A stretch of DNA of 64,000 bases from Planctomycetaceae bacterium. GTDB lineage: Bacteria > Planctomycetota > Planctomycetia > Planctomycetales > Planctomycetaceae. The DNA lies in NCBI GenBank assembly GCA_014762625.1, contig JABURQ010000177.1, positions 1 to 64,000 on the forward strand, read 5' to 3'. The position numbers and the translations under genes are program-made. Shown here in pieces: positions 10,695-19,794 of the stretch. The notes beneath the pieces were generated by a model. It saw only the letters and a list, made by a program, of their open reading frames with translations. It searched no databases and was not told the DNA's origin. The first letter of the stretch is position 1, and each line of letters begins with the position of its first letter.

Positions 10695-11663
10695 TTGTTT
10701 CCAGTCATCGACGTTTCAAATTGGGAACGACTGAGCATGGAACAGATGGGAACCAAACCCAAATTTTGGTGTCAGAGTGAGGATGGCGGAGAATATCTCT
10801 TTAAGGAAAGCCGATCGCACGCAGGAGAACACTGGTCCGAAAAAATCGCCGCTGAAATTGCCCAGTGGATTGGCTTATCCCACGCTTCAATAGAACTAGC
10901 TGTATGCAACGATAAAAAAGGAACCATTTCAAAAAACTTTCTTCCGTTGGACAAATCATGCAGTCTCGTTCATGGAAACGAGTTGTTGTCTAAAATTGAC
11001 GAGTCATACCCCAAAGAAGCTCCCAATTTTAGCGTGGTTCAACATACATTGCCTCGAATCATTGAGGCTTTGGATGAACATCATGCGCAGCCCCCTATGA
11101 CTGCAATTATTCCTGAAGGAGTTACTACGGGAAGTGATTATTTCCTCGGCTATTTAATGCTTGATGCGTTAATCACAAACACGGACCGGCATCACCAGAA
11201 TTGGGGGATCACAATTTCCTCATCTGAAACTGTTGGACATGACACCGAAATCGCCCCAACCTTCGATCATGCTTCTAGTTTGGGTAGAGAATTGACAGAT
11301 CGGAGAAGGGATGACAAATACCAAGCCGAATTGAGACGCAATGAGACAGTCAGCCCTTCAAGAAGAGATCAGACGATTGTTGGATATCTGGAAAGCCGTA
11401 AAGGACGATCGCGCATCTATGAGGCAGAAGCAGAAGCAAACCCACTACATCCAATCGATGTTTTCAGGATTGCTTTTGCGAGATACAATACTCCCTCAGA
11501 TGCGTGGATCAATCGACTCCAATCTCTTGATTATTCTCAAGTGAGACAAATCGTACAGAAGATACCCAACAACATCATGAGTGAACCCGCTCGTAGTTTT
11601 TGTCTCAAACTGATTGAACTCAATTACCACGCAATCATTTCTCGGGGTTTCCAATATGAGTAA
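10695..11663 (+). CDS. HipA-like Ser/Thr kinase (single-domain)
   Basis: A 322-residue HipA-C-type kinase. Visible catalytic elements are Lys37 in YLFKES (ATP-contacting), Glu54 in the following helix, the catalytic loop ITNTDRHHQNWG (Asp164, Asn169) and the metal-binding Asp191 in PTFDHASSLG. It lacks the N-terminal subdomain of classical E. coli HipA and is the size of compact HipA relatives such as CtkA. The family phosphorylates serine/threonine in translation factors or host proteins, often as a toxin held by a HipB repressor; no HTH partner is encoded here. Instead its stop overlaps by eight bases the start of a HIRAN-like gene. TTG start with CCGGAG eight bases upstream. The pair is AT-rich compared with both flanks, suggesting acquisition. 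Confidence 0.8.
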   Translation: MFPVIDVSNWERLSMEQMGTKPKFWCQSEDGGEYLFKESRSHAGEHWSEKIAAEIAQWIGLSHASIELAVCNDKKGTISKNFLPLDKSCSLVHGNELLSKIDESYPKEAPNFSVVQHTLPRIIEALDEHHAQPPMTAIIPEGVTTGSDYFLGYLMLDALITNTDRHHQNWGITISSSETVGHDTEIAPTFDHASSLGRELTDRRRDDKYQAELRRNETVSPSRRDQTIVGYLESRKGRSRIYEAEAEANPLHPIDVFRIAFARYNTPSDAWINRLQSLDYSQVRQIVQKIPNNIMSEPARSFCLKLIELNYHAIISRGFQYE

Positions 11664-12450
11664 TGTTGAACATGCACTTTTTGTCGCATGGCAAAATCCG
11701 ATTTCTCGAAGTTTTTACCCCGTTGCTCGACTCGCTCAGGTCGTGCAATCAGTATGTTCTGAATGTTTCGAGTTTGTTTATATCCAAAACGCAAGGGATG
11801 CCGAAGGGTTCCAACCTTTTTCTTCTTTCCCAGATTTCAAGCAAATCTATCGCAGCAAAGAATTGTTCCCATTATTCGCGAATCGGGTTCCCTCCAGCAA
11901 TCGTTCAGACTATCAAGAATACTTAAGGTACTTGGGGCTTCCAGACGCAAACAATAGTCCAATCACATTACTAAGTCGTAGTTCCGGACAGCGTCGAACC
12001 GACACCCTTGAATTGTTCCCTCTGCCTACATTCGAACCAGATTTCGGTTACCGTACTTGGTTCTGGTCTCATGGCATTCGTCACCTTGAGTCATCCAACC
12101 AAGAACGTGTACTCAAATTGGCGAAAGAAGAAGAGATCTTTCCTTCCATCGATCAGTCAAATACATTCGACTCTCAAGCGATCAAATTATTGAGCAATGA
12201 TCAAATTCATATTGGATTTATGCCTTCGTACTTACTAGACGACGCTCATACTCTCCAAGAAATGTGTCAGACTTGTGAAATCTTCGTAGAAAGAGTCAAT
12301 CCCTCTCCTGCCCCTGTTCAACAAAGATTGCTTTGTCGCCTGGAGTCTTGTTGGCCTGATGGTTTTATCCCATATTCCTCAACAAAATATCAGCCAATCC
12401 CACAAGACGCGGCATCTATTTTACCGCCCGTTTTCGATAGAGAAGTGTAG
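11656..12450 (+). CDS. HIRAN-like domain protein, partner of HipA-like kinase
   Basis: Start chosen at ATG 11656 (MSNVEHALF), which overlaps the kinase stop; 264 residues. The C-terminal half resembles a HIRAN domain, a DNA-end/ssDNA-binding OB-like fold known from Rad5/HLTF: HGIRHL (139-144), N-x-F-D-x-x-A-I (169-176, NTFDSQAI) and IGFMPSYLLDD (186-196), then a strand with VNPSP. The N-terminal 135 residues are a separate domain with FYPVARL, FEFVYI and a LFPLFANRV motif; I do not recognise it. Translation coupling to the kinase implies a joint role: either the kinase's substrate/antitoxin or a DNA-damage or invader sensor. This is inferred from layout and motif only. Confidence 0.65.
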   Translation: MSNVEHALFVAWQNPISRSFYPVARLAQVVQSVCSECFEFVYIQNARDAEGFQPFSSFPDFKQIYRSKELFPLFANRVPSSNRSDYQEYLRYLGLPDANNSPITLLSRSSGQRRTDTLELFPLPTFEPDFGYRTWFWSHGIRHLESSNQERVLKLAKEEEIFPSIDQSNTFDSQAIKLLSNDQIHIGFMPSYLLDDAHTLQEMCQTCEIFVERVNPSPAPVQQRLLCRLESCWPDGFIPYSSTKYQPIPQDAASILPPVFDREV

Positions 12451-17781: not shown

Positions 17782-19794
17782 CTATGCCGCGCGAGGTAGC
17801 GATGTTTCCCCCCGATCAGTATCCGTGGTCAATCCATAACCATGGAGATGTTTTTCGAATTGATCTTGTCGAATATTTCCGGGATCTTGAATCCAGTAGC
17901 TCTCCAATAAACGTGCGTATTGCGTGACCAGGTGAGAGATCCGTTCCGACTTGGATTGTGAGTTGAGTCCCGGATCCAGGGGCTCGTGAATTTGGATATT
18001 CACTATTCCACGGTCGTCGACCGTGGCAAAGATCGGGATGGCGGGAGCCCCCGTTTTGATGGCTAATTGTGCAAATCCTGTCCGGAAGATTCTTTTCCTG
18101 CCTAAAAAATCGATTTCAATTCCCGCATCCCCCTGGGCTCCATCTGCTGAAATATAGAGATACCGTCCTGATTCCAGGTCACGAATCGATTGACGTACGA
18201 TTTGTGTCGGCGATGAGTTTTTGGTTAACAGCAAATTGGCCTCAACATTAGCAAGCTTGGAGGCCCGACCTCCTACGGAAATGGTGGTTAGGGGAAAGTT
18301 TTTCTCAGCAATAATTTTTCCCACGACTCTTGCCGCCCCAAAGTGGCTATTCACAATCAACGCACCAGGTTGCTGGCCTCGATACTGCTCAAGAATCTCC
18401 TCTCCCTCGATCGTGACTGATTTTTCAATTCGATCCAGGCTCATCTCTCCGAAGGCCAGCATTCGCCAATCTTTACATTCATTCGCGAAGAGATGTCGAG
18501 AAACGGCTTTGTTGACATCAACTGGCTGGTTCAGCCAGGTGGCAATTGTTTGAATTCTTTGCCGACTTTCTGGAAAGAACTTTGATTGCAGCAGCCTGGA
18601 AGAAAAGACGTGCCGTAGAAAGACAATTGCCCATTCATACGACATGCGCGAGGCCAGATTGAGACAACATTCCTCCCAGGTTCCCGTGCGGCGCGTTCTT
18701 TTCCACATTTTCTCTCGGTCGAACGCTTGTGGCGATTGTTTTTTCCGGGTCCCCGATTTCGAGGAGCCGGTTTTGGGCGCCGAATGATTGTCGGGCGTTT
18801 TCTGAATCGCGACCGAGTTCCATTCTGGCCCCAGTCTGTTTCGTTGCGATTCGAAGAAACGATGAATTTTCGATTGCCACTCGTCCGAGATCTCGGCCGT
18901 TGCTTTGTCGGAAGCATGAAGCGATTCAGAGCCCTTCAGTCCCAGCATCTCTTTGCGCTGTTTGGGATGACTCAATTGTTGATACTCTCGACTCAGCATT
19001 GGTGATGCATGAATCGATTTCAATTGTTCGATCTGGTATTGAGTCCAGCGATCGTTGACACGCTTGTCAGAGATCAAGTTGATGGTGATCTTCTCATCGA
19101 TTTCGAATGCCCGTGACAACTCGATCAGGAACGATTCGGAATCTGACTTCAGTTGAGAAAAATGAAGGACATGCAGTTTATCAAGCCCAAAAATGGAAGC
19201 ATACATCTCGAGGAGGTCGGCATATCGCAGGTGTTCTCGAATGGGTTCCTCAGGATGTTGCCATCTTTCATCAAGCCATTCGTTGATGCTGAAGTATCGA
19301 GGTGGTTCGCCAAACGAGTCCTTGAGTTCATGATAGCTACGGTGCTTGAGGTTGAATCCCTTCAAGCGTTGAAAATAAAGAGATTCCAGATACTCCAACG
19401 GTTCTCGCAGAACCACGACGATTCGGCAATCAGGAAAATATTGTTTGAAGAGATCAGCCGCTTGATGTTGCTGAGACAAACTTCCAACCGACAACAACTC
19501 CTCTGAAAGAATGAGTGACTTTCCCTGAAGTTTTGCCGCTTGAGAATGCTCTAAGAGTTGTTCAAAGTCCGCTTCGGAGCAAACAGCCTCCCCTCCAAGG
19601 GCTCGTTTCATCAAAGAATCGATCGATTTGAGAGGAAATTTCTCATTGGTACCGTGAATGAATTTTCCGAGGTACTCGACCTGAGGATGTTCGGTGAACA
19701 GAAACTTCTGCAACAAAGAGGTGGCTGTTTTCGGCATCCCCACATGCAGATAGAGGTCCGCTTTGGAGTTCTGTGTTTCTGAAAAATCGTTCAT
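17782..19794 (-). CDS. sulfotransferase-like / LpxL-type acyltransferase-like fusion
   Basis: A 670-residue two-domain protein. Residues 15-330 look like a sulfotransferase: the PAPS phosphosulfate loop HVGMPKTATSLLQKF (17-31) and VVLREPLEYLESLYFQRLKG (127-146), the 3'-phosphate-binding segment. A charged linker (335-365) leads to residues 370-650, which resemble the lauroyl/LPLAT acyltransferase fold: VNSHFGAARVV (481-491), DLESGRYLYISADG, a FLGRKRIFRTG strand and LAIKTGAPAIPIF. In LpxL-type enzymes the His is followed by four residues and a Glu; here the matching position is Arg489, so the acyltransferase half may be inactive or altered. It could decorate a lipid or glycan at the cell envelope. 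Flanked by two coding relics. Confidence 0.65.
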   Translation of the reverse strand: MNDFSETQNSKADLYLHVGMPKTATSLLQKFLFTEHPQVEYLGKFIHGTNEKFPLKSIDSLMKRALGGEAVCSEADFEQLLEHSQAAKLQGKSLILSEELLSVGSLSQQHQAADLFKQYFPDCRIVVVLREPLEYLESLYFQRLKGFNLKHRSYHELKDSFGEPPRYFSINEWLDERWQHPEEPIREHLRYADLLEMYASIFGLDKLHVLHFSQLKSDSESFLIELSRAFEIDEKITINLISDKRVNDRWTQYQIEQLKSIHASPMLSREYQQLSHPKQRKEMLGLKGSESLHASDKATAEISDEWQSKIHRFFESQRNRLGPEWNSVAIQKTPDNHSAPKTGSSKSGTRKKQSPQAFDREKMWKRTRRTGTWEECCLNLASRMSYEWAIVFLRHVFSSRLLQSKFFPESRQRIQTIATWLNQPVDVNKAVSRHLFANECKDWRMLAFGEMSLDRIEKSVTIEGEEILEQYRGQQPGALIVNSHFGAARVVGKIIAEKNFPLTTISVGGRASKLANVEANLLLTKNSSPTQIVRQSIRDLESGRYLYISADGAQGDAGIEIDFLGRKRIFRTGFAQLAIKTGAPAIPIFATVDDRGIVNIQIHEPLDPGLNSQSKSERISHLVTQYARLLESYWIQDPGNIRQDQFEKHLHGYGLTTDTDRGETSLPRAA

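Follow-up and report, generated by a model that had tools for sequence, protein, structure and literature searches.

Which product would require a bacterial protein that begins as a sulfotransferase and ends as a lauroyl-transferase-like acyltransferase, and is the second half still an enzyme when an arginine stands in place of the acid of its motif? Both questions are raised by one gene in the window, the stretch of 64,000 nucleotides from Planctomycetaceae contig JABURQ010000177.1 analyzed here.

Results and Discussion

The gene and its sulfotransferase half

The first-pass annotation had placed this gene at 17782-19794 and implied the plus strand. An open reading frame of 670 aa does exist there, but it runs on the minus strand; the plus-strand reading was ruled out, as it is closed by many stops. 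The features of the gene are as follows.

17782..19794, minus strand: whole fusion gene, 670 aa; ATG start at 19794, stop at 17782-17784
18796..19794, minus strand: sulfotransferase domain, residues 1-333 (core 11-333), with a heparan sulfate 3-OST/NDST-like fold
19711..19749, minus strand: 5'-phosphosulfate-binding loop HVGMPKTATSLLQ, residues 16-28 (Lys22), from sequence and alignment
19372..19407, minus strand: 3'-phosphate-binding stretch REPLEYLESLYF, residues 130-141, with Arg130 and Ser138
18700..18810, minus strand: Ser/Lys/Gly-rich linker of ~35 residues, about residues 329-365, modelled with low confidence
17785..18708, minus strand: LPLAT (lauroyl-transferase-like) domain, residues 363-670, from Pfam and fold match
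18328..18345, minus strand: HFGAAR, residues 484-489, with the catalytic His484 and with Arg489 where the acid is expected, from the alignment
18142..18144, minus strand: Asp551 (SADG), proposed partner of His484, corresponding to LpxM Asp192, VexE Asp532 and PatA Glu200

On one side the gene is flanked by genes for an NAD epimerase, a transaldolase and rlmN, on the other side by genes for a phosphonoacetaldehyde-hydrolase-like HAD protein, a DAO-type oxidoreductase, a zinc alcohol dehydrogenase and a DUF5690 protein, the rlmN and phosphonate (HAD) names being our own assumption from the sequences. No operon with glycan or lipid genes was seen around the fusion gene in the window.

The N-terminal half scores above chance, though just below the Pfam cut-offs of Sulfotransfer_3 (PF13469, residues 18-195, 26.7 bits with a cut-off of 27, E=8e-6) and PF00685 (21.1 with a cut-off of 22). 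As the mixed full-length alignment had put N-only rows partly into the C-terminal half, we modelled the N-terminal half alone with AlphaFold, which gave a pLDDT of 81. Residues 11-333 of this model match heparan sulfate 3-O-sulfotransferase and NDST structures with Z 15-16 over 226-244 residues, whereas cytosolic SULTs match clearly less well (Z about 10). The annotation as an N-terminal sulfotransferase therefore holds, with Z 16 to HS 3-OST, and so does the PAPS-binding loop HVGMPKTATSLLQ reported with it, which lies at residues 16-28. The PAPS-contact residues Gly19, Lys22, Arg130 and Ser138 are present, and among the aligned rows that have the position Gly19 is kept in 18 of 18 and Arg130 and Ser138 in 19 of 19. 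Heparan sulfate 3-O-sulfotransferases and NDST are thus the closest match in fold (Z about 16) and share the PAPS loops, but identity is only 11-17%, and here the domain is bacterial and fused to an acyltransferase.

An APS kinase, for PAPS, is encoded in the same genome. The genus also holds sulfotransferase-only paralogs, one of which, in the genome of the window (L023:303-1258), is broken by a frame change close to the start of its contig. The closest relatives of the N-terminal domain in congener G001 form a tandem pair that adjoins an ABC exporter and a further fusion:

L024:12928-15078, minus strand: sulfotransferase fused to a GT4 glycosyltransferase (G001), beside the ABC exporter and the two tandem N-domain-related sulfotransferases

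The acyltransferase half and its active site

Lip_A_acyltrans (PF03279) is found at residues 451-607 with 48.3 bits against a cut-off of 22.3 (E=1e-12), while the NCBIfam matches, to lauroyl acyltransferases, phosphatidylinositol mannoside acyltransferase and VexE, all stay below threshold; for VexE (NF011721) the protein scores 28.4 bits against a cut-off of 1200 and covers profile positions 467-642 only. In the full-length AlphaFold model the C-terminal half is confident (pLDDT mostly 78-98). Among solved structures, residues 409-656 of the fusion protein match best the mycobacterial phosphatidylinositol mannoside acyltransferase PatA (Z 22.3, 235 residues, 3.1 A), which is 14-16% identical and has no sulfotransferase half, followed by LpxM (Z 21.3 over 258 residues). 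Fold prediction, which had been named as a test that could refute the LPLAT assignment, thus returned an LPLAT fold with Z 21-22. The genome also has LpxC and a separate canonical LPLAT with the motif HFGNWE, and lipid A acylation therefore need not depend on the fusion gene, which would not be the housekeeping enzyme for lipid A.

The motif HFGAAR stands at residues 484-489, as had been stated. Arg489 at the place of the acid is no alignment artefact, since in the alignment with 47 other domains it shares a column with the sixth residue of H(X)4D/E, and it is retained in the one congener that still has this stretch. An altered catalytic site, which had been deduced from Arg489, does not follow, as the protein has in His484 and Asp551, 67 residues apart, the His-Asp dyad on which LpxM and VexE rely. 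The match of Asp551 to PatA Glu200 (phmmer) is weak alone and is backed by the fold.

In order to see how these positions vary we aligned 48 related planctomycete domains in which the motif His is present. As dyad acid 46 of them have Asp and one has Glu, and one row ends before the position. The acid at the sixth position occurs together with an Arg in one downstream column in all 34 acidic domains, and neither residue is found in any of the 14 non-acidic ones. Having neither the H(X)4D/E acid nor an Arg in the partner column, the fusion protein falls outside canonical LpxL/LpxM. The sound reading of the alignment is that its domain has lost the whole Glu-Arg ion pair and kept the His-Asp dyad. 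LpxM His122 has a bond to Asp192, and its distance to Glu127, the ion-pair partner of Arg159, is 7.6 A (PMC6286764). VexE has a Tyr at the sixth position and tolerates Phe there; it is active, with His466 and Asp532 both required (PMC9597891). Dyad and ion pair behave as separate units. A missing acid in H(X)4D/E is hence no ground to call an LPLAT dead, and dyad plus ion pair are the useful test. Because the known catalytic pair of His484 and Asp551 is intact, Arg489 is no evidence of a dead enzyme. It could nevertheless be damaging, since the exchange of the acid for Ala costs E. coli LpxL 3000-fold activity (PMC6286764) and the precedent in VexE is Tyr, not Arg.

Relatives of the acyltransferase domain

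In the maximum-likelihood tree one supported group (99/95) unites 12 of the 13 non-acidic rows. The domain of the window groups with two domains from G232 (97/86) and, on an end branch of 1.13, is diverged. Read from this tree, the co-loss of Glu and Arg is the result of one or two evolutionary events; the association is clean, but with so few events its rows are not independent of each other. Of the two nearest relatives, one forms the C-terminus of an adenylation-carrier-LPLAT protein, and a polysaccharide deacetylase is the fusion partner in another genome:

L075:3499-7365, plus strand: NRPS-like ORF with adenylation domain, carrier protein and terminal non-acidic LPLAT (G232)
L079:2743-4707, minus strand: fusion of a polysaccharide deacetylase and an LPLAT domain whose sixth motif residue is Ser (G164)

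Standalone non-acidic LPLATs with HFGAHM-like motifs adjoin ketoacyl synthase genes in three genomes from another family of the class (L097, L099 and L101), at L101 also near an aminotransferase and LptF/LptG. These loci are a possible uncharacterised lipid cluster. Altogether the gene contexts of the relatives fit ACP-dependent acylation and glycan sulfation, without proving either for the protein of the window.

With these data the second function proposed in the first-pass annotation can be weighed, namely that the C-terminal domain serves only to bind or position a lipid acceptor and is not catalytic, next to an active sulfotransferase. For this would speak the Arg at a position where the acid is worth 3000-fold in LpxL (PMC6286764), the divergence of the domain (end branch 1.13) and its decay in two congeners. 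It is weakened by the intact His484-Asp551 dyad, by the loss of acid and Arg partner together and not by one knock-out change, by VexE being active without the acid (PMC9597891), by a supported group of 12 relatives that also lack it and by the position of acid-less relatives beside ketoacyl synthase genes. We regard a binding-only domain as unlikely, and the other proposal, that a lipid or capsular glycan is both sulfated and acylated, is still the best reading.

Proposed function

By these tests the protein joins a domain of the sulfotransferase superfamily to a member of the LPLAT superfamily that is neither a canonical LpxL/LpxM nor VexE. With LpxM/LpxL (PF03279) it shares the fold (Z 21 to LpxM) and the dyad of His and Asp, but it lacks the Glu-Arg ion pair and has an additional N-terminal domain, and a separate canonical member is present in the genome. 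VexE, the ACP-dependent UDP-GlcNAc C-6 beta-hydroxyacyltransferase of the Vi capsule, is likewise a larger protein with a C-terminal LPLAT, a non-acidic sixth residue and a His-Asp dyad 66 residues apart in the published numbering compared to 67 here. The two differ in this sixth residue (Tyr in VexE, Arg in the fusion protein) and in the N-terminal half, which is a TPR half in VexE and a sulfotransferase fold here.

From the models and by analogy to these enzymes we somewhat favour a bifunctional PAPS-dependent glycan sulfotransferase and acyl-ACP acyltransferase that would decorate a surface glycolipid or capsule anchor. Such a protein would be cytoplasmic. Its N-terminal domain, with the predicted fold and PAPS residues, would bind PAPS and sulfate a hydroxyl or amine of a glycan sugar. 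In its C-terminal domain His484, oriented by Asp551, would activate the acceptor hydroxyl for the attack on the acyl-ACP thioester, a chemistry modelled on LpxM, PatA and VexE, and without the Glu-Arg pair the pocket for the acyl chain or the acceptor probably has another shape. Through the physical joining of both domains one surface glycolipid or polysaccharide anchor might receive a fatty acid as well as a sulfate. Points that weigh against this reading are the possible damage by Arg489, the absence of glycan or lipid genes in an operon with the fusion gene, the loss of the C-terminal domain in both congeners with remnants, and the small number of events behind the Glu-Arg co-loss.

Nod factor (NodH with NodA) and sulfolipid-1 (Stf0 with Pap proteins) are glycolipids that are given both PAPS sulfate and acyl chains, but by separate proteins and with other acyltransferase families, whereas here both domains lie in one polypeptide. 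Should the protein have both activities, a surface glycan would be sulfated and lipidated by a single polypeptide, and to our knowledge this pairing has so far been seen only with separate enzymes. More tentatively, the product may be a sulfated, acylated glycolipid anchor made by an HS-type sulfotransferase and a VexE-like acyltransferase without the Glu-Arg pair, with the non-acidic LPLATs as a branch that has repeatedly been fused to carbohydrate or carrier modules.

Distribution and history of the fusion

The domain order had been called unusual, and the search for the same layout agrees, as the intact fusion was found in this genome only. No second locus with both domains was detected when we looked for the C-terminal domain in 392 genomes of the phylum and for the N-terminal domain in 397 of the class. 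A contig search with the full protein gave no intact fused relative, the conserved C-terminal stretch as query matched only two congener remnants in the genome contigs, and relatives of the fusion were absent from the viral contigs, plasmids and phages searched; these contig, viral, plasmid and phage scans reach close relatives only. None of ten long ORFs with LPLAT domains had a sulfotransferase half in a Pfam check, a search for the VexE family in the phylum returned mostly matches to the TPR half, and a literature search found no report of a sulfotransferase-LPLAT fusion.

Of the two remnants of the C-terminal domain, one is truncated and one carries a frame change. Both lie at one common site, elsewhere than the site of the fusion gene, beside a large dehydrogenase-like gene:

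L021:9464-14497 and L022:10336-15387, minus strand in both: large dehydrogenase-like gene beside the LPLAT remnants

The family of this dehydrogenase-like gene has dozens of matches in the genome of the window. As both congeners with remnants have lost the intact domain, the LPLAT domain is dispensable in the genus. Upstream of the remnant in G002, and in the right orientation, a stretch of 13 sulfotransferase-like residues was a weak positive, with a score of 47.1 where the best of 100 shuffles reached 41.6; the same kind of search in G001 found no decayed sulfotransferase upstream of the remnant. Since the stretch in G002 outscores all 100 shuffles, it is a hint that the pairing of both domains may be older than this species.

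This hint also bears on the idea that two active but functionally unrelated enzymes were fused by chance in one lineage and serve no common product. The occurrence of the intact fusion in a single genome and the sulfotransferase-only paralogs of the genus would agree with such an accident; the G002 remnant and the composition common to both halves argue against it, and we hold it to be quite unlikely. Still less probable is that the gene has no function and is decaying or misassembled. Broken remnants in the congeners, the frameshifted sulfotransferase paralog of the same genome (G000:C69:303-1258) and the low GC would be in line with decay, but 670 codons are open, the catalytic residues of both domains are kept and the models are well folded, and the in-frame linker together with a uniform GC3 speaks against a chimeric contig. 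The bifunctional sulfotransferase-acyltransferase thus remains the reading that we prefer.

The present place of the gene can be compared with G001, which keeps the block epimerase-transaldolase-rlmN-HAD-DAO-ADH-DUF5690 without the fusion gene; rlmN and the HAD gene are 713 bp apart there. GC3 of the fusion gene is 0.52 and 0.49 in its two halves compared to 0.60-0.74 in most neighbours. As the matching site of the congener is empty and GC3 is low in both halves, the fused gene appears to have been inserted or relocated as a unit in this species; no repeats of the kind that flank mobile elements were found at the insertion site. Elsewhere in the window, at 10695-12450 on the plus strand, an ORF for a HipA-like kinase and an adjacent ORF of unknown function have a GC of 0.44 and a GC3 of about 0.40, and with a GC clearly below the rest of the window they are likely to be an acquired pair.
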